From: Myxococcota bacterium
Lineage (GTDB): Bacteria; Myxococcota_A; UBA9160; SMWR01
Direction: 5' to 3'
Length of the DNA: 64,000 bases
Assembly (NCBI GenBank): GCA_039030075.1
Contig: JBCCEW010000029.1
Location: 1-64,000 of the forward strand
A model generated the notes under the pieces. It did not search any database, was not told the origin of the DNA, and saw only the letters and a program-made list of their open reading frames with translations. This document shows positions 75 to 34,723 of this stretch, in pieces; positions within the stretch are counted from its first letter, which is position 1; every line of letters starts with the position of its first letter. The position numbers were made by a program, and so were the translations under genes.

Positions 75-1901
75 CTACTTCCGCCCGATGCGCACCGTCT
101 CACCATCGAAGGTCGGCACCGACAACACGAAGTCGTCGGTCGGGTATCCGATCGCCTGCTCTTCGAGGATGCCGATCGCGATCTCCTCCCCCATCCGCAA
201 ACTGTCGTAGTAGTCCGAGTAGTAGTGCACGCCGGCCATGTTGCGACCGATCGAGATGTTGGCTGCCAGCTTGTTCAGCTCGCCCTCGAGGGTCAGCGGG
301 CACTCGTGCGGCTTCGGCGTCCGGGAGTCGATCGGAACCTTCTTCTTGCCACCGTTCCTGGTCGGTTCGAAGACCAGCGCCCTCGAGACGTTCCGATAGA
401 AGCCCGCCTTCCCGCGGTTGCAGCCCGGGTCGCCGTTGAGACCGAGGACCGTTCCCGTATCGAAGAAGGCCTTCACGATCGTGGTGCACGCACCCGCGAC
501 CGTCGCGTGTCCAGCACCGTAGGTGGGGTGCATCGGCGAGCCCTCGGCAAAGGCCATCGGCAGCAGCGCCGAGGCCTGACGGACCGTGTTCCGGTTGAAG
601 TCGCAAACCGCCTCGACCGTGGCCCCGATGCCGTCGCGCAGCTCGCCGAAGCCGCCGCAGAGCGCCGGGAACTTGCGATCGAGCTCGCGCGCCTTCTCGA
701 TGCGCGCGGCCAGGGCCTCGGGGCGCAGCCGGAGGTGGTTGTTGAACTTCTGGAAACGCACGGCCTTGAGCGCCCGCGTCGCGACCTCGGTGACCAGGGT
801 CAGGATGTGCGGGCCGCCCCAGAGCGCGAATCCACCCGCGTTCTGCGGAATCTCGTCCTTCGAGAGCGGGTGGAACACGTCGCGCATGCCCGACAGCTTC
901 GCGAAACCCGGATCGAAGGGCGTCTTCATCGCCAGCAGGATCAGCGTCGCGTTCAGGTAAGCCTGGTAGAGCGCGTCGAAGTGCACGTAGGTGGCGAGAT
1001 CGCGGGGTGTACAGATGAGCCGTCGCTCGCCCGCGAAGCTCTGGCCGGGACCGCACTTCGCGTTCCTCCGGCCGCGTCCGCAGTCGTTGACGTCGAAGCC
1101 GTCCTGGACGTCGAGCCAGTCCTTCCAGAGCTGCATGTAGTCGACGTGTTCGTCGGCCACCGGCACCTTCTGGTCGATCAGCTGCGCGCCGTAGGGGATC
1201 TTGCCGTGCTCCAGATCGAGCTCCCCGGTCTGGTTGCGTCCGCCGATATGCAGGAACTGGGACAGATAGGGCCCGTTCTCGACCCCCGGGCTCGAGCCGC
1301 GGAAGAGGGTCTGCCGATCGAGAAGGCCGCTCGCGTCCGTCGTGCGCGGCCGCTCCGGGAAGCCGTCCTGGGCGTAGTCGAGGGCGTTGAGTCGCGCGAT
1401 TGCGTCGTTCAGAGCGGGTCCGCCCCCGGTCTCGAAGGCGCTGAAGGGCACGTCTCGCAGCAGGGCGAGTTCGTAGACCTCGGCCATCTCGAAGGCGAGT
1501 TCGTCCGAGCCCAGCTCGGGGGCGGGCGGCATCGTCACCGCCTGGGCATCCGGCCCCTCCAGGTCGAACACGAGCCCCGCGGTCGGCGCCTCCCACTGGC
1601 GGCGACGACACCCGCGCTTCGGCGGGGTCTGCGGCGCAGTGGGCACCGGCACGCGGGTGGAAAAGGGCTCCACGAAGCCGTCGTCGATGGCGGCCCGGAA
1701 GGCTTCGAAATGGGCCGCGTCGGACACGACGCCGAGGTTCGCATCGTGGGCCAGGCCCTTCGTGAAGCTCATCGGGTAGCGCGCGAACGCGTAGCGCTGC
1801 TCGTCGGGGTTCGCGGTATGGGTCGGGTGCTCTCGGTTGCGCGCCCGCTCGGCGGCTTCGATCCGGACACGGCGGGCGGCTTCGGCGCGATCTTCGGGCA
1901 T
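75..1901 (-). CDS. vanadium-dependent haloperoxidase
   Basis: A 608-residue protein of the vanadium haloperoxidase family, which uses vanadate and hydrogen peroxide to oxidise halides. The vanadate-site elements are visible. Lys385 sits in a K-x5-R-x-R-P segment (KFNNHLRLRP). The proposed acid-base His465 lies in PTYGAGHA. Arg553 and the vanadate-ligand His559 lie in GRNMAGVH. Length and the early SFTKGL segment resemble the algal bromoperoxidase-like branch rather than fungal chloroperoxidases. The ATG at 1901 is chosen because GAGGAG lies about eight bases upstream; the frame continues upstream without protein-like sequence. No clear signal peptide is seen. The gene stands alone, 166 bases downstream of the next minus-strand gene. 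Halide specificity cannot be read from the sequence. Confidence 0.92.
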   Translation of the reverse strand: MPEDRAEAARRVRIEAAERARNREHPTHTANPDEQRYAFARYPMSFTKGLAHDANLGVVSDAAHFEAFRAAIDDGFVEPFSTRVPVPTAPQTPPKRGCRRRQWEAPTAGLVFDLEGPDAQAVTMPPAPELGSDELAFEMAEVYELALLRDVPFSAFETGGGPALNDAIARLNALDYAQDGFPERPRTTDASGLLDRQTLFRGSSPGVENGPYLSQFLHIGGRNQTGELDLEHGKIPYGAQLIDQKVPVADEHVDYMQLWKDWLDVQDGFDVNDCGRGRRNAKCGPGQSFAGERRLICTPRDLATYVHFDALYQAYLNATLILLAMKTPFDPGFAKLSGMRDVFHPLSKDEIPQNAGGFALWGGPHILTLVTEVATRALKAVRFQKFNNHLRLRPEALAARIEKARELDRKFPALCGGFGELRDGIGATVEAVCDFNRNTVRQASALLPMAFAEGSPMHPTYGAGHATVAGACTTIVKAFFDTGTVLGLNGDPGCNRGKAGFYRNVSRALVFEPTRNGGKKKVPIDSRTPKPHECPLTLEGELNKLAANISIGRNMAGVHYYSDYYDSLRMGEEIAIGILEEQAIGYPTDDFVLSVPTFDGETVRIGRK

Positions 1902-2275: not shown

Positions 2276-4498
2276 CTAGGCCAGGGTCGTCTGCGACATG
2301 CCATCCGGCGGGTCGCATGGGACCAGGCGTCCCGGGTAGCCCTTGAAGTTCGGGATGCCCTGCTCGTAGTCGAGAAGGTCGTCGGTGTCGGTGGTCAGGA
2401 CGGCGTCGGACGACACGAACGCGCCCGCGAGGTCGAGGTCGCCGCGGGTCTCGGGGTACCACCAGCCATGGGGCACGCGCAGATGGCCCGGGCGCATGCC
2501 CGACTCGATGCTCACCCGCGCGTAGACGTGGCCGTGCTCGGTTTCGAGCCGCGCCCACTGGTCGTCGACCAACCCATCGCGCGCCGCGTCTTCCGGGTGC
2601 ACGTAGAAGTAGGGAGCGGGCGAGCGCCGCCGCAGCACGCCGATGTTTCGCTGACCGGTCTGGAAGAAGGGATCCTCGCGAACGCCCGAGAACACCCGGT
2701 AGGGATACGCGTCGGTCGGCTCCGGCGCGGGGCGGTGGTAGGGCAGCGGGTCGAAGCCCAGGTCAGCGAGGATCGACGAGGCCAGCTCCACCTTCCCGGA
2801 CGGCGTCGCGAAGCCGGTCTTCCGGTACTTGCGATACTTCGGCACGGGCACGTCCATGAAGTTCGACGCGCGGAACTCCTCGAAGGTCCGTCCCGACGGC
2901 TCGAGCCGGTAGTCGATCAGCTCCTCGGCCGTCTTCCACGGGAAGTGCTCAGCGAGGTTCATGCGGTGGGCGAGATCCGTCCAGAACTGGAAGCTCGAAC
3001 TCGCCTGCTCGGGTGCATCGGCCACCGCTTCCGACAGCGTCAGCCGGTCGGTCCAGGCCCAGGAGTCGCTGATGTGATTGCGCTCGCTGAAGACGTCGCC
3101 CGGCATCACGTAGTCGGCCAGCATGGCGGTGGGCGTCATGAAGATCTCGTGGGCGACGATCAGGTCCTGATTCATCATCGCGCGACGGATCTGGTGCTGG
3201 TTCGGGTACGAGAGCAGCGTGTTGTTGCCGAGGGTGAAGAACGCCTTGATCGGATAGGGGTCTCCGTCGGCCATCGCGCGGAAGACTTCCGTCGGGTTGG
3301 CCATCTGGCAGCCCATCACCTGGTCGACCCAGGGCTGCCCCCAGACGCGCTCCATATGGGGCTTCAGCATCTCCGCGGTCCGGTAGGTGTACGCGGGGTG
3401 CCTCTCGTAGCCGAGCTGCTTCGCGCGCTGCTCGGGCAAGATCGAGTCGTGGAGCTGCAGCTCGGATTCGTAGCGCCAATCCGAACGCAGCCCATGCAGG
3501 ATCTCGCCGCCGACGACGTCGAGATTGCCGGTGATCGCACGCAGGATCGTCTGGATGCGGATCCCGGACGTGGAGTCGAGCTGCTGGTCGGTGATCGGCG
3601 TCCACGGAATCACCGCGCCGTCGGCGTTCGCGTAGATGCGCGCGGCCTCGGCGATCTGCTCGGCCGGGACGCCCGTGATCTCGGCCACGCGCTCGAGCGG
3701 ATACTCGGCGACGCGCTCACTCAGCTCCTGGAAGCCGACACACCAATCGCGCACGAAGTCCTTATCGTAGAGACCCTCGTCGATGATGACCTTCGTCCAG
3801 CCGAGGAGCAGCGCGGCGTCGGTGCCCGCGCGAATCTGCAGGTGCAGCGTGGCCCGCTCGGCCTGTTCGGACACGCGCGGGTCGACGACGATCGTCTTCG
3901 CGCCCCGCTTGCGGGCCCCCTCGATCGCGTTGTAGATCGGCGTCCACGAGTGCTTCCGCGGGTTGTGGCCTAGCAGCACGATGCAGTTCGCGTTGCCGAT
4001 GTCGGGCATCGGAAACCAGCCGTAGGTCAGTCGGTTCACCGCGGCCGTGTTCCCGGCACACAGGGCGACGCCCGAGATCCAGTTCGGGGCGCCCAGCAGG
4101 TTCATGAACCGGCGGTCGAGGCCGTAGGTGGTCTGGGTATTCCAGCCCGACGTCGAGGTGGCAAAGCCCTCCGGGCCGTACTCGTCCACGACCGCTCGGA
4201 GGCGCTCGGCGATCTCGTCCATCGCCTGTTCGTAGGAGATCTCTTCCCAGCGATCCTCACCGCGCGCGCCCACGCGCTTCAGCGGGACGCGCAGGCGTTC
4301 CTCATGGTTGTGGATGTGGGGTGCGGCCGTGCCCTTGTAACAGATGTTCCGCGCGAGGGCGGGCGAGTCGTGGGCGATGACACGGTCGACACGGCCATCG
4401 ACGGAGATGGTGCGGACCTGGCAACCGATGTCGCAGACCGAGCAGATGTTGTAGCCGGTGCGCCGGGTCGAATCCGTCGGTTGGTTCTGGGTCGTCAC
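2276..4498 (-). CDS. acetylene hydratase-like Mo/W-bis-MGD enzyme
   Basis: A 740-residue DMSO-reductase-superfamily protein. It starts at GTG, one base after the tetR stop; no ATG is available nearby. Cys19, Cys22, Cys26 and Cys53 form the N-terminal [4Fe-4S] site, and Cys147 (in ALCAGN) lies where the protein ligand to Mo or W is expected. Asp23 directly follows the second cluster cysteine, as the catalytic Asp13 does in Pelobacter acetylene hydratase. Recalled from memory, that enzyme also shares long collinear stretches such as LYDK-FV-WCVGF-EL. There is no Tat signal, ferredoxin-like subunit or membrane anchor nearby, which fits a soluble single-subunit enzyme. Alternatives are a hydratase for another substrate or an oxidoreductase using free electron carriers. 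The operon is tetR - enzyme - small protein. Confidence 0.8.
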   Translation of the reverse strand: MTTQNQPTDSTRRTGYNICSVCDIGCQVRTISVDGRVDRVIAHDSPALARNICYKGTAAPHIHNHEERLRVPLKRVGARGEDRWEEISYEQAMDEIAERLRAVVDEYGPEGFATSTSGWNTQTTYGLDRRFMNLLGAPNWISGVALCAGNTAAVNRLTYGWFPMPDIGNANCIVLLGHNPRKHSWTPIYNAIEGARKRGAKTIVVDPRVSEQAERATLHLQIRAGTDAALLLGWTKVIIDEGLYDKDFVRDWCVGFQELSERVAEYPLERVAEITGVPAEQIAEAARIYANADGAVIPWTPITDQQLDSTSGIRIQTILRAITGNLDVVGGEILHGLRSDWRYESELQLHDSILPEQRAKQLGYERHPAYTYRTAEMLKPHMERVWGQPWVDQVMGCQMANPTEVFRAMADGDPYPIKAFFTLGNNTLLSYPNQHQIRRAMMNQDLIVAHEIFMTPTAMLADYVMPGDVFSERNHISDSWAWTDRLTLSEAVADAPEQASSSFQFWTDLAHRMNLAEHFPWKTAEELIDYRLEPSGRTFEEFRASNFMDVPVPKYRKYRKTGFATPSGKVELASSILADLGFDPLPYHRPAPEPTDAYPYRVFSGVREDPFFQTGQRNIGVLRRRSPAPYFYVHPEDAARDGLVDDQWARLETEHGHVYARVSIESGMRPGHLRVPHGWWYPETRGDLDLAGAFVSSDAVLTTDTDDLLDYEQGIPNFKGYPGRLVPCDPPDGMSQTTLA

Positions 4499-4499
4499 G

Positions 4500-5090
4500 T
4501 CAGTCTCCCTCGCGCCCGATGCGGGCGTCGTGTTCGTCGGCCAGGCGGAGCAGCTGCTCGAGGACGCGATCCTCGTGGCGGAGCGGCTCGCCGTTCGTGG
4601 CGCGTCCGAGCAAGAGCCCGAACATGGTCTCTCGCGCCATCCAGAAGAAGGACTGGGCCGGCTCGTCGACGAGCAGCGCGGAACGCTGCTCGGGGTGCAC
4701 GAGCTTCGCGAAGCGCTCGACGACGGGCCCGATCGAGGCGCCGAGCGCCGGGTCGTTCGCCGCCGCAAGCCACGCTTCGATCACGACCTTGAAGTCGAAG
4801 CGCGTCATCGTCTCCCAGGTGCGCGCCACCAGGTCGGTGACCGAAGCCGGCGCCGCCGAGGTCGTCGCGACTTCGGCCAATGCGGTGTAGCGGTGCTCGA
4901 GGGCAGCCGCGAAGAGCTCCGGCAAACCGTCGAAGTGGTGCACGAAGGCACCGCGGGTGAGCCCCGCACGCGCGCAAACGGCCACCGAGGTCACCCCGGC
5001 CCAACCGTGCTCGACGAGCAGTTCGAGGGTGGCCCGGACCAGGGCCTCCCGGGTCGCCGCCGACCGCTCTGCCTGGGTGCGCTTTGCCAT
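4500..5090 (-). CDS. TetR family transcriptional regulator
   Basis: A 196-residue one-component repressor. The N-terminal helix-turn-helix spans roughly residues 10-55 (TREALVRATLELL, then TSVAVCARAGLTRGAFVHHF), followed by a variable ligand-binding helical domain. The stop codon is one base from the GTG of the molybdoenzyme, so the two are co-transcribed and the regulator probably controls its own operon. A near-perfect palindrome about 20 bases upstream of the start is a likely operator. The ligand is unknown; if the enzyme call is right, the substrate or a related hydrocarbon is a natural candidate. Confidence 0.9.
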   Translation of the reverse strand: MAKRTQAERSAATREALVRATLELLVEHGWAGVTSVAVCARAGLTRGAFVHHFDGLPELFAAALEHRYTALAEVATTSAAPASVTDLVARTWETMTRFDFKVVIEAWLAAANDPALGASIGPVVERFAKLVHPEQRSALLVDEPAQSFFWMARETMFGLLLGRATNGEPLRHEDRVLEQLLRLADEHDARIGREGD

Positions 5091-5110
5091 CGCCGCAGGT
5101 TAGCAGATAG

Positions 5111-5124
5111 ATGCATCGATGTAT
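5111..5124. promoter_or_regulatory. candidate TetR operator
   Basis: The sequence atgcatcgatgtat is palindromic at 12 of 14 positions around CATCGATG, sits in an unusually AT-rich stretch, and lies 21 bases upstream of the tetR start. It is the natural site for autoregulation of the tetR-molybdoenzyme operon. The remaining intergenic DNA up to 5361 shows no gene. Confidence 0.5.
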
Positions 5125-5361
5125 GTATATTTATGGAGTCGAAATTCACCAACTCTTTCGATGGCTTACGAAGCCCCTGGGTCGAGTCATGATCGGGAAG
5201 CCGAATCACCGGGCGCCCCCCCCCGCGCGAGCGGCGGGAGCCCGAGCGGTCGGGGCGCGACGGGGGCACCGCGCGCCACGCCTGGCGCCGAGCCGGCGCC
5301 CCGGCCGGCCGAGCCTTCGTCCTACACGTGTCGGCGTTGATGGCGGTAGGGTGGGCGAACC

Positions 5362-6048
5362 ATGCGCCGTACCACCGCGCTCCTCACCGCCTGGATCCTC
5401 GGCTCGGTCTTCGTCTCGACCACGACGTCCGCGACCACCTTCACCTACATCGCGTCGGGCACCACGTCCCCGACGCTGGGGGTGGAGACCTTCGGCCTTT
5501 CGCGGACCTTCACCCTGACCTTCGACCTCGACACCGACGCCATGCGAGACGGCGGCGACCCGCATTCCATCTACCCGGAGGGTGTGCAGAACTTCCATCT
5601 CCGTTTCGGGCACGGCCGGTTCGTCTTCGCCCCGACGGCAGTCTTCAATGCCGTGATCAACCGCTCGTCGCACGCCTGGAGCATCCCCATCGACCTGACG
5701 AGCCCGCAGATCACGACCAACCTCCCCCTGACCGGACGGAACCTGATCACCCTGCAGCCGCTCTTCCTGGAGCGCATCAGTTTCTCGGCGTCCGATCGCG
5801 AGGAGGGCTTCTACCTGGAGGTGCCGCCGGAGATCGCCGCGACGGACCCATTCCTGTACGACAGCGTCAACATGTCGATCCGCTGGAGCACGCCCGTCAG
5901 CCCGAACGGCGGATCGACTCTTCGCCTATCGCTCGACACCTTCGACGTGCTCCCGGAGCCAGACGGATTCGGAGCGCTCACCGCCGGGGCCGCAGGCCTC
6001 GTGGCACTGGCGCGTCGACGGCGCGGTCGCGGGGGGGTGCCGAAGTGA
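5362..6048 (+). CDS. exported PEP-CTERM-like protein
   Basis: A 228-residue protein with an N-terminal signal peptide (about residues 1-24) and a C-terminal tripartite tail: Pro-Glu-Pro at 198-200, a hydrophobic helix and an arginine cluster (RRRRGR). This is the PEP-CTERM pattern recognised by exosortase in Gram-negative bacteria. The central region is beta-rich and has no recognised domain. The last four bases overlap the GTG of the next gene, whose product has a similar tail, so the two are co-translated and probably act at the surface together. The start lacks a strong ribosome binding site. Confidence 0.75.
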   Translation: MRRTTALLTAWILGSVFVSTTTSATTFTYIASGTTSPTLGVETFGLSRTFTLTFDLDTDAMRDGGDPHSIYPEGVQNFHLRFGHGRFVFAPTAVFNAVINRSSHAWSIPIDLTSPQITTNLPLTGRNLITLQPLFLERISFSASDREEGFYLEVPPEIAATDPFLYDSVNMSIRWSTPVSPNGGSTLRLSLDTFDVLPEPDGFGALTAGAAGLVALARRRRGRGGVPK

Positions 6049-7208
6049 GCGGGCTCGCCCGACGACTCGGGTTCTCCCTCAGCCTCGTGGGAGCGCTCGT
6101 CTTCGTCTGTCCCGCGTTCGCGGCGATCGTCGAGTTCGACAGCACCTACCGGCACGGCTTCGGCGACGGCGGCGATCCGGGCACGGCCGACCTTGGCCTG
6201 AACGGTCTGCCGGCTTGCAATCAGGGCATTCGGCCACATCTGAACGCCTCGATTCCCGGACACGGCTTCGCCGAGCTCGGCTCGGGAAGCCCGGCTTCGC
6301 TGATGGCCCTCCGACCGCTCCGATACGGCTCCGCGGGTCCCACCACCGGGAACCTCACGGTCATGGCCAAGCCTGGCGTCGCGGGTATCAACGGGATGGC
6401 GCGCTACCACCCGAGCACCTGCCAGGCCGTCTTCACCCCCTCGGTGCTGACACCGCCCGTCACGAGAGAGACCTTGATCGATCGGTTCACGGGCCCCGCT
6501 CAGTACACGATCAGTACCAGCACCACGCCCCTCGGTGGAAAGCTCTTCATGACGGGGCCCGAGACGGAGATGCACACGCTCGCGCCCCTCCGAGGGCCCG
6601 GCAACTGGACCTTCATGGTCCCGACCACCTTCGCGACGAGCATGCAGACCGCGCGCATCGTCGGTGGCGCGAATCGCTTCGGCGGCGGATGGCGTGCGAG
6701 CGGCGGGGGAATGCGTCAGACGGACATTCTGGTCGCGCCCGGTTTCGTGATCCGTCTCGGATGGGCTTCGGGCCCCCACATGGCCGGCCACGGGAGAAGC
6801 GTTCCCACCCAGTTCGTGTCGCAGACCGGGATGTTCACGGCGCTGGCGTCGGGTGGGATGGCTCCCATGCGAGCGCGCTGGTGGTATGCGCCGTTTACGA
6901 CCGGCACCGTCTGGGCCGAGGATCGGGGCGGTCAGTTCGTCACGATCCGCTCCGAGATGGGCTTCGACAACCGCACGGGCCCCAACTCGAGCATGGGCTC
7001 GCTCCTGCTCGTGAGCCCGTGGGTGGCGAACATCGTCGGTTTCGGCGGATTCGCTGGCAACCCGGTCCACTTCGGCGGCACCGCGTCCCTCCGCTTCGAG
7101 TTCCTCCCCCAACCCGACGCCAGCGCCTCGCTCCTGGCGGGGGCGCTCGTCGTCCTGGCCCTGCACTTCGGGTTGCGCCGCCGGGATCGTGGGGGCGATC
7201 GGCGTTAG
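6045..7208 (+). CDS. exported protein with variant PEP-CTERM tail
   Basis: A 387-residue protein starting at GTG inside a GTGA overlap with the upstream gene. A signal peptide covers roughly residues 1-28 (LVGALVFVCPAFA). The body is rich in Gly, Thr and aromatic residues and resembles no family I recognise. The C-terminus has Pro-Gln-Pro at 355-357, a hydrophobic helix and RRRDRGG, a variant of the PEP-CTERM sorting signal. Together with its partner it is probably anchored or released at the cell surface. No exosortase gene is present in this window. Confidence 0.72.
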   Translation: MSGLARRLGFSLSLVGALVFVCPAFAAIVEFDSTYRHGFGDGGDPGTADLGLNGLPACNQGIRPHLNASIPGHGFAELGSGSPASLMALRPLRYGSAGPTTGNLTVMAKPGVAGINGMARYHPSTCQAVFTPSVLTPPVTRETLIDRFTGPAQYTISTSTTPLGGKLFMTGPETEMHTLAPLRGPGNWTFMVPTTFATSMQTARIVGGANRFGGGWRASGGGMRQTDILVAPGFVIRLGWASGPHMAGHGRSVPTQFVSQTGMFTALASGGMAPMRARWWYAPFTTGTVWAEDRGGQFVTIRSEMGFDNRTGPNSSMGSLLLVSPWVANIVGFGGFAGNPVHFGGTASLRFEFLPQPDASASLLAGALVVLALHFGLRRRDRGGDRR

Positions 7209-24972: not shown

Positions 24973-27900
24973 CTAGCGACTTCTTCGTAGTTGCTCCCGA
25001 CTCCCAATGAGCGAGTAAAGGGACGGGACGAGAAAGAGCGTAACGGCAGTAGAGAACGTGAGGCCCCAGCCAAGCGCGAGCGACACCGGCGAGACGATGG
25101 TGTCGTACCCACCGAGACCGTACGCCGTTGGAAAGACGCCCGCGAGAGTCGACAAGCTCGTGACGACGACCGGGCGAAGTCGCCCAACACATGCTTCGAT
25201 AAGGATGTCCTTCGAGGCCACCCCCGAGGCCCGATCCTTGGCTCTTCGGACGGCGTCGATCAGTAGAATCGATGAGTTGACCACGACGCCCGAAAGGCCC
25301 ACGGCTCCAACTAGAGAGAGCATGGACACCGGCATCCCGTGCGCGAAGAACGTCATGATGACCGCGGCGACCGAGAAGGGCACTACCGCGAACACGACGA
25401 TCGAATCGCGTAGCGACCCCAGCATAAGGGTGATGACGCAGATCGTGAGGCCAATGCTGATGAGGAACGCGACTGCAAGTCCCTGCAAGCCCTCGATGCT
25501 CTCTGCGGCCTCGCCTCCAATCTCAATCAATACTCCGTCCGACTCGAGGCCGAGCTCCTCATCGACTGCGGCTGCGATACTGAGCGGCGTGGCCGCGCTT
25601 CGCGGGTCGATGCCTCCGGTGACCGTTGTCGAACGCATTCCATCCCTCCGAGTCACGCGAGGAGAGACCCGCCTCTCGATCGGCTCCAAGACGTCACGCA
25701 GCGGCACCAAGTCACCGCGTCGATTCCGGATCTCAGCGTCTAGAAGCGCATCGATATCACGCCGGTGAGAGGCTTCGTATAGGACCCGCACGTCCATCGA
25801 CCCGCTTGCACCGCGTATCTCTGTAGCAATGGTCCCTTCCAGCGCGGCTTGCAGCGTCTCAACGACGAGCTCGACATCGAGTTGTCGCATCGCGAGGCGT
25901 TCGTGCGAGGGGTTCAGGTCGAGTTCGGCGACGGCTGCCTCGTCGGTGAGCGCAACGTCCACGCCTCCGGCTTCCTCGGCTACGTGCCGCACCTCCTCCG
26001 CAACTCGAATCCGCGACGCGTCGTCGTTGCCGAGCACGTACACTTCAATCGGCTGGAGGATGGGCGGCCCATCGACAACGGCCGCATACTCAACGTCGAC
26101 TCCGTCAGGGACGACGATGCGATCTCGCACATGCTCAATCCACTCGGTGGCATTGAGGCGCCGCCGATCCAGGTCGAGGAATACCCCGACGAATCCCTGG
26201 TGCTGAGTGCCGCCGGTTGTTCTGGCAATCTCCCCAGACTCGATGTGGCCTGCTCGAGCCGTGACAGCGAGCAGGTCGGATCCCATGATGGTTGGCACCT
26301 GGTCCTGAATCGACGCCAGTATCGCCTCCGTGCGCGCAAGTGGTGTCCCCGCCGGGGCTCTAACTTTGATGTGGAAGCCCTTGCTTCCCTCCTGTGGGTA
26401 GAAGACGAATTGCATCGTCGGTGCGATCACAACTATCACCAAGCACCATCCCAAGATGAAGCTCGCAACGATCGCCAGCGGGCGGTTCAGCGACCGCTCC
26501 AAGAGCCCGCGATAGACCTGCTCCATTCGCACCAAGAACGCGCGCTTGCCCAAGCCGTCGGAACGCTCGCGCAGCCCGCCCATATGCGCGGGCAGAATCG
26601 TGAACGACTCGAGAAGCGAGAATACCAGCGCGATGCAGACCATTGCCGGTAGCGGCCAGACCATCTGCCCCGAACTTCCGCCGAGCGACAAGAGCGGCAC
26701 GAACGCGAGGATCGTTGTCACCGCGGCCGTCGCCACGGGGGCAGCGACTTCCGAAGCTCCCATTGCTGCGGCGTCTGCGGCCGAGTAGCCGCTTGCTCTC
26801 TTCGACAAGATGCGCTCTGCGACGACGACAGCGTCGTCCACAAGCATCCCAAGCACGATGACGAGTCCCAACGTGGAGACAATGTCGAAACCGAGGCCGG
26901 CTCTTGGCATCACCGTGACGACACCGGCTACAACAAGCGGCACCCCGACGCATACCCAGAGCGCTGCCCCGGGGGTGAGGAAGGTGAATACGATGATTCC
27001 GACCAGGAAGGTTCCGATGAGAGCGTTCTGCCCCATGATGCCCATCCGTTTTCGGATGTCGTAGCTTCCATCGTTCACGATCGAGATGCGTACCGAGTCC
27101 GGTACCGCGAGGTTCGACAACACGCGGTCGATGTCGCATCGAGCTTCGAGCAGGTCCGCGCTGGCTGTCTTCGTAGGGATAACGGACACACCGGATTCAC
27201 CATTGGTCCCGACCGCGAGGCCAACGTCCTTGCGTGACATCACAACGCGAGCGACGTCGCCAACCCGCACCAGGCCCGAGGATCCTCCGAAGCGAAGCGC
27301 AGTATTCTCGACATCCTTGGCACTCTCGAAGCGCCCCAAGATGACTACGTCCCGGCGATCAGTCGCTGACTTGATGCCGCTTCCAGCGCCGGACGCGTTT
27401 CTTCGTCGGAGTGCCGCAGTGACATCACCCGAGGTAACGCCAAGCCCCTTGGCAACGTGCGGCTGAAAGAGAACGTGTACCTCTCGGTCAGGCAGGCCGA
27501 CGACCGCTACGCGACCGATCGTTTCCAGGCGGCGGAGTTCATCTTCGAGGCGCTCAGCAAGCGGAGCGACCTCGCTTCCGGGGCCGGAGAGCGCGATCTC
27601 CAGCAGCGGATATTCGGCATCGACGACGCGAGTGATCGTCGGTTCGTCCCGCATCTCCACTGGAAGTCCGGAGATGTTGCCAACCGCCCAGCGGATGTCT
27701 CGTTCGATCCGGGCGGAGTCCTCGGCCTCGGTATCCGGGGAGAGCTCGACGTGCGTACTGCTCTGTCCTCTGATCGACACGGAGGAGTAGTGGCGGATTC
27801 CGTCGATTTCCTGCAGGGCCTCCTCAATGGGAACCGTTACGCGTCCTTCGACTTCTTGCGCCGACGCTCCGGGAAGAGAAGCAGCAACGATGAACTTGGG

Positions 27901-28032
27901 CACCTCTCCGGGTGCGAACGCATCCACGCGGACATTCGAGATCGAAGTCAGACCGAGCAGCGCCATCATGATGGTCAACAGGTGCACCACGAAGGGGCGG
28001 TCCAACAAGAATCGAACAACCCGTTCCACCAC
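24973..28032 (-). CDS. RND efflux pump inner-membrane protein
   Basis: A 1019-residue RND transporter with twelve expected membrane helices in two repeats and two large periplasmic loops. The helix-4 proton-relay motif appears as GMLVDDAVVVAERI. The sequence is AcrB-like in length, exporting small hydrophobic molecules with proton exchange. It starts at GTG, whose first base is the last base of the upstream adaptor stop, so the two are coupled. Codon use is clearly less GC-biased than in flanking genes, which suggests acquisition. No TolC gene accompanies it. Confidence 0.93.
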   Translation of the reverse strand: MVERVVRFLLDRPFVVHLLTIMMALLGLTSISNVRVDAFAPGEVPKFIVAASLPGASAQEVEGRVTVPIEEALQEIDGIRHYSSVSIRGQSSTHVELSPDTEAEDSARIERDIRWAVGNISGLPVEMRDEPTITRVVDAEYPLLEIALSGPGSEVAPLAERLEDELRRLETIGRVAVVGLPDREVHVLFQPHVAKGLGVTSGDVTAALRRRNASGAGSGIKSATDRRDVVILGRFESAKDVENTALRFGGSSGLVRVGDVARVVMSRKDVGLAVGTNGESGVSVIPTKTASADLLEARCDIDRVLSNLAVPDSVRISIVNDGSYDIRKRMGIMGQNALIGTFLVGIIVFTFLTPGAALWVCVGVPLVVAGVVTVMPRAGLGFDIVSTLGLVIVLGMLVDDAVVVAERILSKRASGYSAADAAAMGASEVAAPVATAAVTTILAFVPLLSLGGSSGQMVWPLPAMVCIALVFSLLESFTILPAHMGGLRERSDGLGKRAFLVRMEQVYRGLLERSLNRPLAIVASFILGWCLVIVVIAPTMQFVFYPQEGSKGFHIKVRAPAGTPLARTEAILASIQDQVPTIMGSDLLAVTARAGHIESGEIARTTGGTQHQGFVGVFLDLDRRRLNATEWIEHVRDRIVVPDGVDVEYAAVVDGPPILQPIEVYVLGNDDASRIRVAEEVRHVAEEAGGVDVALTDEAAVAELDLNPSHERLAMRQLDVELVVETLQAALEGTIATEIRGASGSMDVRVLYEASHRRDIDALLDAEIRNRRGDLVPLRDVLEPIERRVSPRVTRRDGMRSTTVTGGIDPRSAATPLSIAAAVDEELGLESDGVLIEIGGEAAESIEGLQGLAVAFLISIGLTICVITLMLGSLRDSIVVFAVVPFSVAAVIMTFFAHGMPVSMLSLVGAVGLSGVVVNSSILLIDAVRRAKDRASGVASKDILIEACVGRLRPVVVTSLSTLAGVFPTAYGLGGYDTIVSPVSLALGWGLTFSTAVTLFLVPSLYSLIGSREQLRRSR

Positions 28033-29174
28033 TAGAATTCGGTGCCCAGCGGCGAGACAGGCATTCCGTCCACGAGGGCGAACTGCCCGGACACGACAAC
28101 GACCTCTCCCTCCTCCATACCGTTCACCACTTCGACGTAACCGGCAGCCTCACGCCCAACTCGGAGACTTCGCTCTCTTGCAACCCACCCGTCCACCGCC
28201 CGCTCGACTATGAAGAGGGCGGCCTTGCCGTTGTCCTGAGTCAAGGCGGAGCGAGGGACGCTGAGGACGGCTGAGTTCGACGCCGGTAGCTCGACAACTG
28301 CCACGATCCCATCTCGCACTCCATCCACGGCGGCATTGGACCAAAGCTCCAGACCGAAGGTCCCCTCGAGCTCATCGGCCATCGCGCCGAGCTTTTGGAT
28401 CGCCATGATTTCCTCGATCCCCGGTAGGTCTGGGAATCGAACGACGAGCTGCGTGTGCGAGCGAATCCGGTGTAGATCACGAGCTGATACGCCGGCTACG
28501 ACTCGAACGCGAGCTAGGTCGACCACGGTTGCCACATGGTCACCGGTCTGGACCGAGTCTCCGGCATCCACGAGCAACTCTTCAACTGTTCCGGCGAACG
28601 GCGCGCGGATGAGGGCGTCTTGCGCCAAGCGTTGCGACTCCTTGAGCTGCACCTCCGTCAGGCGTAGACCTGCTGTCGCGATTTCAAGATTGTTCTCGAG
28701 CTCCGCTAGCCGCACGTCGCTGATCGCGTCCGCTTGCGCCAAGGGTTGCGCTCGCTCGAGCTCTCGCCTTGCATGAGCATTCGCGGCGCGCGCGCGCTGC
28801 CTCTCGGCCAGGGCGCGTTGCACCCTGATCTCCGTGCGACTCGGGTCCAACGCAATAAGCACGGCGTCCGGCAGGACAGGCTCGCCAGGCGCGACTTGAC
28901 GGTCGACAACGCGACCGGTCAACTCAGACTTGAGCTCCGCGACACGGAATGCACGGGCGCGGCCGGTGATTTGTCGGCTCTCGCCGATCACGCGAACCTG
29001 GGCTCGATCCACGGACACCCGCGCCGCGACGACGGGCCTCTTCGCTGCGGGCGATCGGTCCTCCTCCGCAGATTCCGAGGCAGAGCAGGACGCCAAGCCC
29101 AGCAACAGGGTCGCCGCCAAGACGGTTTCCGATCTCGGGTGGCCCAGCGGCCTTTTTTGCGACGGGTGACTCAC
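28032..29174 (-). CDS. RND periplasmic adaptor lipoprotein
   Basis: A 380-residue membrane fusion protein. The lipobox LASC at the end of the signal peptide predicts a lipid-anchored adaptor. The lipoyl and hairpin region contains VAPGEPVLPDAVLIALDPS, an alpha-hairpin rich in Arg and Ala (QRARAANAHARRELERAQ), then ALIRAPFAGTVEELLVDAG. A C-terminal beta-barrel follows. GTG at 29174 is chosen from the lipobox position and a GGAGAG five bases upstream. It is the first gene of the operon with the RND protein. Its promoter shares a repeat with the MipA-type gene at 36042. Confidence 0.88.
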   Translation of the reverse strand: MSHPSQKRPLGHPRSETVLAATLLLGLASCSASESAEEDRSPAAKRPVVAARVSVDRAQVRVIGESRQITGRARAFRVAELKSELTGRVVDRQVAPGEPVLPDAVLIALDPSRTEIRVQRALAERQRARAANAHARRELERAQPLAQADAISDVRLAELENNLEIATAGLRLTEVQLKESQRLAQDALIRAPFAGTVEELLVDAGDSVQTGDHVATVVDLARVRVVAGVSARDLHRIRSHTQLVVRFPDLPGIEEIMAIQKLGAMADELEGTFGLELWSNAAVDGVRDGIVAVVELPASNSAVLSVPRSALTQDNGKAALFIVERAVDGWVARERSLRVGREAAGYVEVVNGMEEGEVVVVSGQFALVDGMPVSPLGTEF

Positions 29175-29203
29175 CGTGCTCTCCGATGGCGATGCTCCCC
29201 ACA

Positions 29204-29254
29204 ACCATCGGCGCCGGACCTTGCTGCCCCTTTTGGGGCGTGTGAAGAAGTGTG
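29204..29254 (-). promoter_or_regulatory. OmpR-type box plus second motif, RND operon
   Basis: The plus strand shows GTGTGAAGAAGTGTG at 29240-29254, a direct repeat of GTGTG with a ten-base period, as OmpR/PhoB-type regulators bind. After 30 bases comes accatcggc (29204-29212). The promoter of the MipA-type gene carries the same two blocks with the same 30-base gap and nearly the same distance to the start codon (69 and 72 bases). It is a likely target of the response regulator at 37074. The rest of the 324-base region up to 29498 holds the tetR operators and no other gene. Confidence 0.6.
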
Positions 29255-29424
29255 TATTTCGTTGGGGAGAGGGTGTCGCAAACGGAAAGACCAGTGATTC
29301 CGGTCGACTGCGGCCAGCGTTAAGGGACCGCTTCGCCGCGCCGGCGGGCTCATGCATCCGCGAAACGGACGCTGGGCTAGGCAGAGCGCCTGGCGCTTAG
29401 CGTTCTTGATTTCCTCAGAGATCG

Positions 29425-29447
29425 AACGTACGTTTGAAACGATCGTT
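29425..29447. promoter_or_regulatory. twin palindromic TetR operators
   Basis: Two perfect ten-base palindromes, AACGTACGTT (29425-29434) and AACGATCGTT (29438-29447), have centres 13 bases apart and end 52 bases upstream of the tetR start. They are the obvious autoregulatory sites for the TetR protein at 29499 and its RND operon. Confidence 0.6.
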
Positions 29448-29498
29448 CGACCGCTTTGTTGATCCCACGGATCGAATCGCGCGCCCCGCGAGAGCCCT

Positions 29499-30179
29499 TT
29501 GACCTCCGCCCCTCGAGTCGACTCGGACCGGCCTTCCAGCCATGACCGGCCGCCGTCTGCCGCCAAGCTCCGACTGATCGATGCCGCCGAGCGAATCTTC
29601 GCGGAGCGAGGCTTCGAGGGTGCCTCGATGCGCGCGATCACCGCGGAAGCGGGCATGTCGGTCTCCGCCGCGAACTATCACTTCGGTTCCAAGGAAGCGC
29701 TGCTGGCGGCGACGATCCGCCGCCACGTCGAGCCGATCAACGAGCGGCGCTTGGCGGAGCTGGCGCGGACCGAGGCCGAGTCGGCTCCGGACCCTCCCGA
29801 CGTCGAGGCGATTCTGCGTGCCTTCCTCTTCCCGTCGTTCGAGGAGCCAAGCGAGCGGGACAGTCACCGAGAAGTCGTAAGCCGTCTTCATTCCGATCCG
29901 CCCGAACGCGTTGGCCGGCTCAAGAACGAGCTCTACACAGCAATGCGGGAGCGGTTCTGTGATGCGCTCGCGCGTGCCTTGCCGGGTGCCGACCGGGCCC
30001 AGATCGAGGTCGGTTACCAGTTCTGCATCGGCGTCATGGTGCACGTGATCGCTGGCCATCACATGCCGAGCGCTCCAACGAAGGAGCTCGATCCCGAAGA
30101 GACGACGCAGGCCATCGCGCGCTACACGAGCGCAGGGCTTCGCGCCCTTGTCGGCGATGGCGGTGGGGGTAACGGCTGA
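29499..30179 (+). CDS. TetR family efflux regulator
   Basis: A 226-residue TetR protein. The helix-turn-helix covers about residues 22-68 (LRLIDAAERIFAERGFEGAS, then VSAANYHFGSKEALLAA), and a C-terminal TetR ligand domain follows. No ATG exists near the N-terminus, so TTG at 29499 is the best start, with GAGAG upstream. The stop TGA shares its A with the ATG of the adaptor gene, giving a tetR-adaptor-RND operon, and twin palindromes precede it. It probably represses the pump until a pump substrate binds. Confidence 0.88.
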   Translation: MTSAPRVDSDRPSSHDRPPSAAKLRLIDAAERIFAERGFEGASMRAITAEAGMSVSAANYHFGSKEALLAATIRRHVEPINERRLAELARTEAESAPDPPDVEAILRAFLFPSFEEPSERDSHREVVSRLHSDPPERVGRLKNELYTAMRERFCDALARALPGADRAQIEVGYQFCIGVMVHVIAGHHMPSAPTKELDPEETTQAIARYTSAGLRALVGDGGGGNG

Positions 30180-31405
30180 TGGACGGGCGGCGGCGCAAGC
30201 ATATACTTCCCCTGTTGCTCCTCGGGGTTGGCGCGGTTCTGGTCGCGCTGCTTGTTGGCGTCCAGCCCAGTCCGAGTCGTACAGAGCCGGCGCCGATCTC
30301 TCCGCTCGTACGCGTTGTCGAGGCTATCCCCGAGACGATATCGCTACGCGTTCACGCACAGGGTACGGTCGTTCCGCGAACCGAAAGCGACCTGGTTCCC
30401 GAGGTGGCCGGGCGGGTCGAGTGGGTGTCTCCAGACCTCGTCTCCGGCGGCACCTTCGAGTCTGGCGAGCCGTTGGTTCGCATCGAGCGAGCCGACCATC
30501 AGGCAGAGCTCGAGAGTGCGCGCGCCGCGGTTGCCCGCACGCGCAGCGAGGCAAGCCGCGCCGCGAAGGAGCTGCGTCGCCAACGCACCCTCGCCGGTCG
30601 ATCCGTCACGAGTCAGGCGCGCATTGACGACGCCGAGAACGCAAGCCGAGTTGCCGACGCGCTGGCACTGGAGGCCAAGGCGAAGCTGGCGCGAGCCCAG
30701 CGCGATCTCGAGCGCACCGAGCTGCGTGCACCCTACACGGGGCGCGTGCGGGAAGAGAGCGTCGATCCCGGTCAGTTTGTGAATCGCGGCACCGCGATCG
30801 CGCGGCTGTACGCGGTCGACTATGCGGAGGTGCGCCTTCCGCTGCCCGACCGCGAGTTGGCCTACCTCGACGAGAGCGTTCTCCATGTCGTCCGTGGAGC
30901 CGATGGGCTTCGACCGCGCGCGACCCTCCGGGCGGAGTTTGCGGGTGGCTCGCACGAATGGCGTGGTGAGATCGTCCGTTCGGAGGGCGAGATCGACGCG
31001 CGCAGTCGGATGGTGCACATCGTCGCTCGGGTGGAGGACCCCTACGGTCTCGCCGCGGATCCCACGCTCGAGGCGCCGCCGCCGCTTGCAGTTGGGCTCT
31101 TCGTTGACGCAGAAATCGAGGGTCGCTCGATCGAGAACGCTTTCGTGTTGCCCCGTGAGGTGCTGCATGTCCACCGTGGCCAGGAAGGTCAGGTCTGGGT
31201 GGTCGACGCGGAAGATCGGATCCGAGTGCAAGATGTCGAGGTGCTGCGCACCGAACGAACCGACGTGGTGATCACGGCCGGTCTCGGCCGAGGCGACCGC
31301 GTACTGCGGACGCGCTTGCGAGCACCGATCGATGGGATGAGCGTGCGCGTCGCGAGCCCGGACACCGCTCCGAATCGAGAAGCGCTCGCGGAGCGGAAGC
31401 AATGA
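30179..31405 (+). CDS. RND periplasmic adaptor protein
   Basis: A 408-residue membrane fusion protein with one N-terminal membrane helix (about residues 9-27) instead of a lipobox. The lipoyl half VPEVAGRVEWVSPDLVSGG, an alpha hairpin, the second half RAPYTGRVREESVDPGQFV and a beta-barrel follow in order. The one-base overlap with tetR and the ATGA overlap with the RND gene show a tightly coupled operon. It bridges the RND protein at 31402 to a TolC channel encoded elsewhere. Confidence 0.92.
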   Translation: MDGRRRKHILPLLLLGVGAVLVALLVGVQPSPSRTEPAPISPLVRVVEAIPETISLRVHAQGTVVPRTESDLVPEVAGRVEWVSPDLVSGGTFESGEPLVRIERADHQAELESARAAVARTRSEASRAAKELRRQRTLAGRSVTSQARIDDAENASRVADALALEAKAKLARAQRDLERTELRAPYTGRVREESVDPGQFVNRGTAIARLYAVDYAEVRLPLPDRELAYLDESVLHVVRGADGLRPRATLRAEFAGGSHEWRGEIVRSEGEIDARSRMVHIVARVEDPYGLAADPTLEAPPPLAVGLFVDAEIEGRSIENAFVLPREVLHVHRGQEGQVWVVDAEDRIRVQDVEVLRTERTDVVITAGLGRGDRVLRTRLRAPIDGMSVRVASPDTAPNREALAERKQ

Positions 31406-34400
31406 CCCGGATCATCGCTTGGTGGGCGCGGAACCCTGTTGCGGCGAACCTGTTGATGTTCCTGATGCTGCTCGGAGGCCTCGCAAGCGTTCCAGCGATC
31501 GGCCAGAAATCCTTCCCTGACCTCGACCTCGAGCGCATCACGATCAGCGTGGAGTATCCAGGAGCGGCTCCCGAGGAGGTTGAGGAAGGCGTCTGCATCC
31601 GCATTGAGGAAGAGGTCCAGGGGCTCAACGGCGTCAAGAAGATCACATCGACGGCGACAGAGGGCCTCTGCGCCGTGACCGTCGAACTCTCTCGAGGATA
31701 TCCGGTCGATCGGGCGCTGAGCGACGTGAAGAACGCCGTTGACGGTATCGACGCCTTCCCCGACGAAACCGAGGAGCCGGTCATTCGCTACCTCGAGATC
31801 CAGAGGACTGCCGTGCAGATCGCGCTCTCCGGAGCGGCTTCGGAGCGATCGCTGAAGGTGTGGGGTGAGCGTCTACGCGATGGACTTTCTGCGCAGCCAG
31901 AGATCTCGCAGGTGGAGTTACAGAATGCCCGCGAGTACGAACTCGCCATCGAAGTCCCGGAGGCCTCGCTGCGCCGCCACGGCCTGAGCTTCGACCAGGT
32001 AGTGGCGGCGGTGCAGCGCGGGTCGCTCGATCTACCGGGGGGCGCGATCAAGACGGATTCTGGGGAAGTACTCCTACGCGCAAAAGGCCAGGCCTACACG
32101 GCCGAGGATTTCCAAGCGCTCGTGGTCATGACGCGCGCCGACGGAACGCGCCTTCGCCTGGGAGAAATCGCGAACGTGGTGGACGGGTTCGAGGACGAGG
32201 ACCGCTATGCCCGTTTCGATGGCGAGCCTTCTCTGATGATCCGCGTGGTACGGGTCGGCGACCAGAAGGTCATGGGCGTGGTCGAATCGGCCCAAAGCTT
32301 CCTCGGGCGCGAAGGTCCACGCCTACCGGAAGGCCTGAAAATGACGGTCTGGCGCGACGGGGCGAAGGAGCTCCGTGAGCGGCTCGACATCTTGTGGCGC
32401 AACGGACGCGCGGGCTTCGTCCTCGTGTTCCTGGTCTTGGCGCTCTTTCTGCAGTTTCGTTTGGCGATCTGGGTTTCGATCGGTGTTCCGGTCGCGATCG
32501 CCGGTTCACTCGTCCTCTTGCCGGCATCTGACATCTCCATCGACGTGATCTCGACCTTCGCCTTTATCATGGTGCTCGGCCTGTTGGTCGACGACGCGAT
32601 CGTCGTTGGTGAGAACGTCCACACCCATCAGGAGAACGAGGAAGATCCGTTGCAGGGCGCTGTAAGTGGCGCCCAGGAAGTGGCGGTCCCTGTGATCTTC
32701 GGCGTGTTGACGACGATGGTTGCATTCCTTCCGATGATTGCATCGCCCGGTTTGATGGGTCAGATCTTTGGGACGATCGGTATGGTGGTCATCTTCTGCC
32801 TGATCGGCTCCCTGGTCGAATCACAGTGGATTCTACCTGCGCACCTCGGTCACCACGGAGGGCGCGGCCTCTCCGACGCGCGATCTCGTCTCGGAATGCG
32901 CTGGAGGGGCATACAGCAGCGATTCTCGGGATGGCTCCGCAGGTTTACTCACGACCACTACGTGCCCGCACTCGATCGCGCGATCGAATGGCGCTACAGC
33001 GCAGCGGCGGGTGCGGCGGTTCTCCTGCTTCTCGCCTTTGCGCTTATCGGGACGGGGTGGGTCAAGTTCACTTTCTTCCCGGAGATCGAGTCCGACTACG
33101 TAACGGCCAGCGTCGCGATGCCGCAGGGGACTCCCGTCGACCTGACTGCTCGCGCGGTGGACTCGCTCGAGCGCTCGGCGATCGAGCTCAGCGAGCAACT
33201 GAACGCCGAATTCGGGGCGGACGAAAGCGATCCGCTGGTTCGGCATGTAATGGTCTCTGTCGGGGTGCAAAGTGCGGACGAGGGATCGCCTCGGGGAGCG
33301 AACGCGCCCACCGGCTCGCATCTCGGTGAGGTACAGATCGAGATCCTGAGCGGCGATCGCCGGCCGCTTTCCGCCAAGGAAATCGCGAATCGCTGGCGCG
33401 AGCTCACGCCGCCGATCCCCGGCGTCGAGGAGCTGTCCTACGCCGCCGATTACTTCGCGAAGGGCGACGAAATCGATGTCCAGTTGCAGTCGGAAAGCCT
33501 GGCGGACCTCCAGTCTGCCGCGACCTTACTCCGCCGCGAGTTGACCTCGTATCCGGGCGTCTACGACATCACCGATTCATTCAGGGCTGGCAAACAGGAG
33601 ATCAAGCTCAAAATTCTACCCTCCGCCGAGGCGCTCGGTCTGACGCTCGAGGACCTCGCTCGGCAGGTGAGACAGGCGTTCTATGGTCACGAGGCGCAGC
33701 GAGTTCAGCGGGGCCGTGACGACATCAAGGTCATGGTGCGATTTCCGAAGGATCAACGTCGCTCGTTGACCGATCTCTCGGAGCTTCGCATCCGAACGCC
33801 CGACGGCGCGGAGGTCCCGTTCGACAGCGTGGCGCGCGCCGAGATGGGCTCTGGCTTTGCCAGCATCAAGCGGGCCGATCGCAGTCGCGTGATCAACGTG
33901 ATGGCCGGTGTGAATGATCGGCTCGCCAACGCCAATGAGGTCCTTGCTTCACTCGAGGCCGAGTTCCTGCCGACGCTGGTCGGTGACTACCCCGGACTCT
34001 CGTTCTCCCTCGAGGGCGACGCAGCCGAACAAGGTGAGTCGGTGGCGGCGCTCGGACGCAACTACATCGTCGCCATGTTCGCGATCTACGCGTTGCTTGC
34101 CATCCCGCTCCGCTCGTACCTCCAGCCACTCATCATCATGGCGGTGATTCCTTTCGGTGTGGTGGGTGCCCTGCTCGGACATTTGCTAATGGGTGGCCTC
34201 GCGGGCGCACTGCCAGAGTGGATGACGGTGACGCGGGCCGTCGTCGGTTTCAGCATGATGTCGATCTTCGGAATCGTCGCCGCATCGGGTGTCGTCGTGA
34301 ACGCGAGCCTCGTCCTGACTCACTCGATCAATGGGCGACTCGGGGCAGGTTCCGCGCTTCGTGCCGCCGTGCGCGAGGCCGGCGTCACGCGCTTCCGGCC

Positions 34401-34671
34401 TGTGGTGCTGACGTCGATCACCACGTTCGTGGGTCTCGTACCGATGTTGCTTGAGGGAAGCTCGACCGCACAGTTCTTGATTCCGATGGCGTGCTCGCTT
34501 GCCTTCGGAACTCTGTTCTCTTCGGTGATCTCGCTGTTCCTTGTCCCCTGTGCCTACGTGATCGTCGATGACCTCCAAAAGGCCTACGCGACGACATGGG
34601 ACCGGCTTATGGGAATGGGGCCGCTTGGCCTGGCGGCAGGGGCGGACCCTCCTGAGGACCGGTTGCGCTAA
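31402..34671 (+). CDS. RND efflux pump inner-membrane protein
   Basis: A 1089-residue RND transporter, slightly longer than AcrB. The first helix follows RIIAWWARNPVAANLLMFLM, helix 4 has GLLVDDAIVVGENVH with the proton-relay aspartates, and the second half repeats the fold. It sits at the end of the tetR-adaptor-RND operon and is followed by a perfect hairpin. It is only distantly similar to the RND protein at 24973, so the two are not a recent duplication. Substrate range cannot be read from the sequence. Confidence 0.94.
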   Translation: MTRIIAWWARNPVAANLLMFLMLLGGLASVPAIGQKSFPDLDLERITISVEYPGAAPEEVEEGVCIRIEEEVQGLNGVKKITSTATEGLCAVTVELSRGYPVDRALSDVKNAVDGIDAFPDETEEPVIRYLEIQRTAVQIALSGAASERSLKVWGERLRDGLSAQPEISQVELQNAREYELAIEVPEASLRRHGLSFDQVVAAVQRGSLDLPGGAIKTDSGEVLLRAKGQAYTAEDFQALVVMTRADGTRLRLGEIANVVDGFEDEDRYARFDGEPSLMIRVVRVGDQKVMGVVESAQSFLGREGPRLPEGLKMTVWRDGAKELRERLDILWRNGRAGFVLVFLVLALFLQFRLAIWVSIGVPVAIAGSLVLLPASDISIDVISTFAFIMVLGLLVDDAIVVGENVHTHQENEEDPLQGAVSGAQEVAVPVIFGVLTTMVAFLPMIASPGLMGQIFGTIGMVVIFCLIGSLVESQWILPAHLGHHGGRGLSDARSRLGMRWRGIQQRFSGWLRRFTHDHYVPALDRAIEWRYSAAAGAAVLLLLAFALIGTGWVKFTFFPEIESDYVTASVAMPQGTPVDLTARAVDSLERSAIELSEQLNAEFGADESDPLVRHVMVSVGVQSADEGSPRGANAPTGSHLGEVQIEILSGDRRPLSAKEIANRWRELTPPIPGVEELSYAADYFAKGDEIDVQLQSESLADLQSAATLLRRELTSYPGVYDITDSFRAGKQEIKLKILPSAEALGLTLEDLARQVRQAFYGHEAQRVQRGRDDIKVMVRFPKDQRRSLTDLSELRIRTPDGAEVPFDSVARAEMGSGFASIKRADRSRVINVMAGVNDRLANANEVLASLEAEFLPTLVGDYPGLSFSLEGDAAEQGESVAALGRNYIVAMFAIYALLAIPLRSYLQPLIIMAVIPFGVVGALLGHLLMGGLAGALPEWMTVTRAVVGFSMMSIFGIVAASGVVVNASLVLTHSINGRLGAGSALRAAVREAGVTRFRPVVLTSITTFVGLVPMLLEGSSTAQFLIPMACSLAFGTLFSSVISLFLVPCAYVIVDDLQKAYATTWDRLMGMGPLGLAAGADPPEDRLR

Positions 34672-34723
34672 GGAGGGTTCGACACGTTCGCGTGCCTCGT
34701 CTTGCATTGATCAAGAAAGAAGA

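Follow-up and report, generated by a model that had tools for sequence, protein, structure and literature searches.

The acetylene hydratase (AH) of Pelobacter (Syntrophotalea) acetylenicus (PDB 2e7z, EC 4.2.1.112) is the described enzyme with which the gene analysed here is best compared. According to the cited part of a 2025 review, the relatives of AH are uncharacterised, its mechanism is without consensus, and one residue, Asp13, is specific to the AH subfamily (PMC12096430). Here we analyse P0001, an AH-like gene in a 64,000-nucleotide stretch of a Myxococcota contig (JBCCEW010000029.1, positions 1 to 64,000; hereafter the window). The subfamily to which it belongs is undescribed in the titles and abstract openings listed by our literature searches on AH, including searches combined with TetR or marine metagenome-assembled genomes. 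We propose, with a probability of roughly 55%, that P0001 is an AH-type hydratase that works in the cytosol as a single subunit and without redox chemistry, with a remodelled pocket and a small alkyne-like substrate other than, or besides, acetylene. The gene and its key residues are:

2276..4498, minus strand: P0001, acetylene-hydratase-like molybdopterin/tungstopterin enzyme, GTG start, 740 aa
4421..4444, minus strand: [4Fe-4S] motif C-x2-C-D23-x2-C, codons 19-26; D23 corresponds to Asp13 of Pelobacter AH
4142..4144, minus strand: Trp, codon 119, at the AH Ile113 position (81/81 family rows)
4055..4060, minus strand: Cys147 (AH Cys141, predicted metal ligand) and Ala148 (AH Ile142), codons 147-148, from the alignment

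A first-pass annotation of this DNA had placed the gene at the correct coordinates. The open frame is that of the minus strand; the plus strand across 2276-4498 is broken by an in-frame stop. The CxxCDxxC motif, Asp23, Cys147 and Ala148 at the AH Ile142 position, all named in that annotation, are in place, as are Cys19, Cys22, Cys26 and Cys53. Pfam finds the domains Molybdopterin and Molydop_binding only. The absence of a transport signal was also correctly noted: no hydrophobic stretch comes after the two arginines at residues 12-13, where relatives differ. Nor is there a partner redox subunit among the neighbours in the window, which are a TetR gene and a relative of vanadium bromoperoxidase. 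The contig begins in the assembly at window base 1, about 75 bases past the bromoperoxidase-like gene. Hence nothing is visible further downstream.

Among 44 PDB sequences (E <= 1e-10), AH (2e7z) is the top match to P0001, with 643 bits versus 226 for the runner-up. The match runs across residues 18-720, and the identity to AH is 43%, which bears out the long matching stretches that the annotation had named. An AlphaFold model of P0001 (41 aligned sequences, pLDDT 87.9, pTM 0.90) superimposes on 2e7z at 1.7 A over 709 residues with a Z score of 49.1; the runner-up reaches 37.2. In a viral structure library P0001 has no match below E 0.001.

A tree of the wider family had been proposed as a check. 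Our 52-row tree, which excludes named enzymes of the formate, thiosulfate and catechol types, unites in one clade (100/98) the 33 rows of the P0001 family, five rows of a second group from the host's order, AH and a plasmid protein of Rhodococcus opacus. AH is closer to P0001 than the R. opacus protein is (100/98), in a tree for which the program gave a long-branch warning for the AH and R. opacus rows, among others. We rejected three other identities on their NCBIfam scores: formate dehydrogenase (Fdh-alpha, 298 versus a cut-off of 666), thiosulfate reductase (PhsA, 253.5 versus 694) and nitrate enzyme (NasC, 207 versus 1100). The membership of P0001 in the AH subfamily of the dimethyl sulfoxide (DMSO) reductase family is well supported.

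P0001 is part of a widespread subfamily and not one odd gene. Our scan of genome contigs found 119 relatives, and the best 80 of these were kept. These 80 share 65-85% identity with P0001 and come from Myxococcota, Acidimicrobiales and other Actinomycetota, Thermoanaerobaculia, marine Gammaproteobacteria (OM182, Halieaceae, K189A), Mycobacterium persicum and Mycobacterium attenuatum. A strong match is present in 20 of the 377 genomes of the host phylum, every one of them in the host's order; 15 belong to the P0001 subfamily and five to the second group. Within the host's own family, one genome in 17 carries the gene. In the tree the phyla intermingle: two Acidimicrobiales loci (L047 and L048), for example, lie within a Myxococcota branch (99/96). 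Such interleaving suggests gene transfer.

The catalytic site is constant across this subfamily. Our alignment holds 81 rows (79 of the 80 kept scan loci and two loci from the scan of the host phylum) and leaves out same-contig duplicates and the truncated L117. Residues are numbered as in 2e7z, a numbering checked on the known residues of that structure. C9, C12, D13, C16, C46, K48, C141, W179, W293, W472 and R606 are invariant in 81/81 rows. From the kept cysteine at site 141 we infer that Cys147 is the metal ligand of P0001. Ten further molybdopterin proteins from the host genome, in an alignment that is less sure, have Glu, His, Thr, Phe or Ser at site 13 and never Asp. The aspartate after the second cluster cysteine exceeds chance, because all 81 family rows have it and none of the ten paralogues does.

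In contrast to the catalytic residues, the pocket has changed. Five exchanges are fixed in 81/81 rows: Ile113 to Trp, Ile142 to Ala, Met140 to Leu, Gln115 to Thr and Val295 to Pro. The second group has the same Trp113 and Ala142, with Phe or Tyr at 472. Ile113 presumably lines the AH pocket, and we take Ile142 to be the pocket isoleucine of the propyne study cited below. The annotation had concluded from the exchange of Ile142 for Ala that the substrate could be larger than acetylene. This does not follow, because Trp at 113 refills the space. AH is reported not to hydrate propyne (PMC6308299). Judged from the aligned residues, the pocket is reshaped and not merely enlarged. A double exchange that is fixed while the rest of the site stays constant points to a different single substrate, common to the whole subfamily.

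The gene upstream of P0001 and its predicted operator are:

4500..5090, minus strand: TetR-family regulator, 196 aa; its stop codon lies one base before the hydratase-like GTG
5109..5126, no strand: predicted TetR operator ACATACATCGATGCATCT, with 2 mismatches to ACATACAT-N2-ATGTATGT, 18 bp upstream of the TetR start

The two genes appear to be coupled in translation, because there is one base between the TetR stop and the GTG and because a GAGGGAGA stretch inside the TetR end lies just ahead of that start. In 18 of 79 loci, window included, a related TetR gene immediately precedes the hydratase-like gene in the same orientation. We derived the operator pattern from palindromes ahead of some of the TetR genes; about five loci served for the derivation, and the remaining loci are an independent test. 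Of the 16 TetR loci with enough upstream sequence (L043, cut short, was left out and L103 was too short), 14 have the pattern ahead of TetR with at most two mismatches. The other two have three and four mismatches. The operator spacer is 2, or 6 in two loci. None of the 55 other loci carries the pattern at the threshold of two mismatches.

The annotation had called the TetR dedicated, and the host genome (5.76 Mb) agrees: at up to three mismatches it holds a single match to the pattern, ahead of this TetR gene, and shuffled windows yield zero matches. Fourteen of 18 further genomes carry the pattern with at most two mismatches, in each of them at a TetR-hydratase pair. In five Pseudomonadales loci a MarR gene lies just upstream in place of TetR. 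The predicted arrangement of TetR, operator and enzyme is typical of a stand-alone enzyme unit induced by a ligand. In one of the 14 genomes with the pattern (G294), the match lies at a second TetR-hydratase pair, one with an operator of its own (L145:1-912, G294:C93); there the contig end truncates the hydratase.

A tungstate transporter was another proposed check. The host has one of the TupABC type (L132:2317-4910, G000:C6), whose binding protein matches 3lr1 at 6.3e-51 and falls below the strict NCBIfam cut-off, and it has two genes of the aldehyde ferredoxin oxidoreductase type. In the host genome, which is 95% complete, the molybdate-binding protein ModA was not found; a WtpA-type tungstate-binding protein was not found either. 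The host lineage is tungsten-leaning. Tungsten is not a family trait, however. Among 20 hosts reached via named contigs, ModA is present in 20/20 and TupA only in L075, which is from the host's order; the 19 hosts outside that order all have ModA and lack TupA.

Within the host's order, TupA occurs in 20/20 genomes with an AH-like gene and in 51/59 without (Fisher p 0.19), and nine of the 20 carry ModA too. Hence we rejected a tungsten link through co-occurrence: because TupA is common also without the AH-like gene, it is a lineage trait and not by itself evidence for the metal of the enzyme. Hosts outside the order probably use molybdenum for the enzyme, although uptake genes do not prove which metal is held. 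One active site therefore occurs in tungsten-equipped and in molybdenum-equipped hosts. The AH of R. opacus is described as molybdenum-dependent (PMC7858054).

Downstream of P0001 lies:

75..1901, minus strand: vanadium bromoperoxidase-like gene, 608 aa, best PDB E 4.5e-126

Its product has no Pfam or NCBIfam match, and of the 79 loci only this window has such a neighbour. Because the pairing is not conserved in relatives, the gene is probably outside the system. Our search for a functional partner via gene order found nothing broadly common apart from TetR and MarR (6/71 upstream open reading frames, ORFs). In Mycobacterium persicum and Mycobacterium attenuatum an aldehyde dehydrogenase gene precedes the AH-like gene in the same orientation, and MoaA is encoded a few kilobases from them. 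This pairing fits an aldehyde as the hydration product, in one clade only. We also considered whether the TetR-hydratase pair might equal Rv0196-Rv0197 of M. tuberculosis; the mycobacterial loci found have a different neighbourhood. COQ7-like genes occur in the examined flanks of 10 loci, mainly of marine Gammaproteobacteria. An Amidase gene follows the hydratase-like gene in 2/77 loci and a DUF7009 gene in 6/77. The small DUF7009-type protein adjoins it at L054:10405-10773 and at six other loci, all of marine Gammaproteobacteria, and in six of the seven it lies right downstream.

Other features of the window concern different subjects. Two proteins on the plus strand (5362-6048 and 5328-7208) have C-termini that are PEP-CTERM-like by eye, and the first is without a Pfam match. 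The stretch 24973-34671, ahead of a tRNA-Arg (34618-34698), encodes two RND efflux pumps, one per strand, and their HlyD partners. G+C content is 62-65% at about 24 to 40 kb and 67-71% elsewhere. A 1019-aa open frame on the minus strand (51736-54795) has no Pfam match at 1e-5.

To explain the constant catalytic site and the exchanged pocket, we favour the AH-type hydratase with a substrate other than, or besides, acetylene. A reduced metal (tungsten in the host, probably molybdenum in most other hosts) would be held by two pyranopterins and Cys147. Asp23 would activate water for addition to a small triple-bonded, alkyne-like substrate. The resulting enol would tautomerise to an aldehyde or ketone, which ordinary dehydrogenases would oxidise. 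Until it binds the substrate, or a compound that marks the substrate, TetR would keep the unit of its own gene and P0001 repressed.

Several points weigh against this proposal. Trp113 could return the pocket, opened by Ala142, to acetylene size. TetR is found in only 18 of the 79 loci, and neighbours other than TetR and MarR are not broadly conserved; the aldehyde dehydrogenase pairing belongs to a single clade (2/71 upstream ORFs). Most hosts belong to groups that are known to be aerobic. Pelobacter AH is described as oxygen-sensitive (PMC6013536).

A more ambitious form of the proposal is tentative, and we think it more likely wrong than right. P0001 would represent a second type of pyranopterin hydratase without redox chemistry, encoded in a self-contained cassette of TetR, operator and enzyme that its substrate induces. 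The cassette would have been transferred among Myxococcota, Actinomycetota and Gammaproteobacteria, and the enzyme would hydrate a small alkyne other than acetylene, with tungsten or molybdenum in one active site, in mostly aerobic cells.

Alternatively, P0001 could be a true AH that converts acetylene to acetaldehyde, with the exchange of Ile113 for Trp compensating that of Ile142 for Ala. In favour of this, the AH of aerobic R. opacus is described as known and dependent on molybdenum (PMC7858054). Every catalytic residue is kept, P0001 shares a clade with AH, and the Mycobacterium relatives have their aldehyde dehydrogenase operon. Yet the two relatives tied to acetylene users, one of them by our assumption about R. 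opacus DSM 44186, keep Ile113 and have Ile or Leu at 142. We consider this explanation rather unlikely. P0001 as an AH in the strict sense is not well supported, because P0001 and all 81 rows have Trp and Ala in place of the Ile113 and Ile142 of AH proper, and acetylene activity would be a prediction only.

A lower probability still goes to an enzyme of the wider AH branch that carries out redox or group-transfer chemistry with electrons from unlinked ferredoxins. Catechol dehydroxylases and an ergothioneine synthase module are described as AH-related (PMC7028382, PMC9516567), and the mostly aerobic host groups would suit such an enzyme. But Asp13, specific to the AH subfamily in the cited part of the review (PMC12096430), is kept in 81/81 rows, no redox partner gene adjoins P0001 within the window, and P0001 has no desulfurase domain. 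Hydration of a C-N triple bond (cyanide, nitrile or isonitrile) to an amide or formamide would be the same chemistry on a near-isosteric bond in a changed pocket. Pelobacter AH, however, is reported not to convert cyanide, nitriles or isonitriles (PMC6013536). No nitrile-hydratase family is among the first 25 neighbour families listed, and Amidase follows in just two loci. We regard C-N hydration as very improbable.

The subfamily is a large natural set in which catalytic residues are constant and two pocket residues are exchanged, and it spans hosts with apparent tungsten and apparent molybdenum uptake. Thus existing genes allow tests of which residues set the substrate and of whether tungsten is needed. 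With TetR and its predicted operator, the substrate could be sought without guessing.

How does P0001 compare with known systems? The metallopterin-dependent ergothioneine synthase of Caldithrix abyssi has an N-terminal module related to AH at 27% (PMC9516567) and a C-terminal cysteine desulfurase, a domain that P0001 lacks by Pfam. The catechol dehydroxylases of Eggerthella and Gordonibacter, which we compare by description only, are placed nearest to AH in the bis-MGD (molybdopterin guanine dinucleotide) family; they catalyse redox reactions, and some at least have Fe-S and membrane-anchor partners, unlike P0001 (PMC7028382).

The R. opacus DSM 44186 protein of our tree (WP_120661552.1, plasmid pRop44186_a) has about 40% identity to P0001, the CxxCD motif and the metal cysteine. 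Unlike the P0001 subfamily, it has Ile113, Leu at 142 and Lys at 606, and its linked genes are those of a ferritin-like protein, fdxA and moeZ, with no TetR listed. Its gene (L123:8028-10388) lies among these and transposases. This strain is reportedly one of the aerobic acetylene degraders of Rosner and colleagues, and the gene may encode the aerobic acetylene hydratase, so far uncharacterised.

With Pelobacter AH, P0001 shares the fold, 43% identity, the cluster cysteine motif, and Asp13, Lys48, Cys141, Trp179, Trp293, Trp472 and Arg606. It differs in that its subfamily has Trp for Ile113, Ala for Ile142, Leu for Met140 and Pro for Val295. The subfamily's hosts are in other phyla, and most of those examined are equipped for molybdate uptake only. 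P0001, moreover, has its own TetR and predicted operator.
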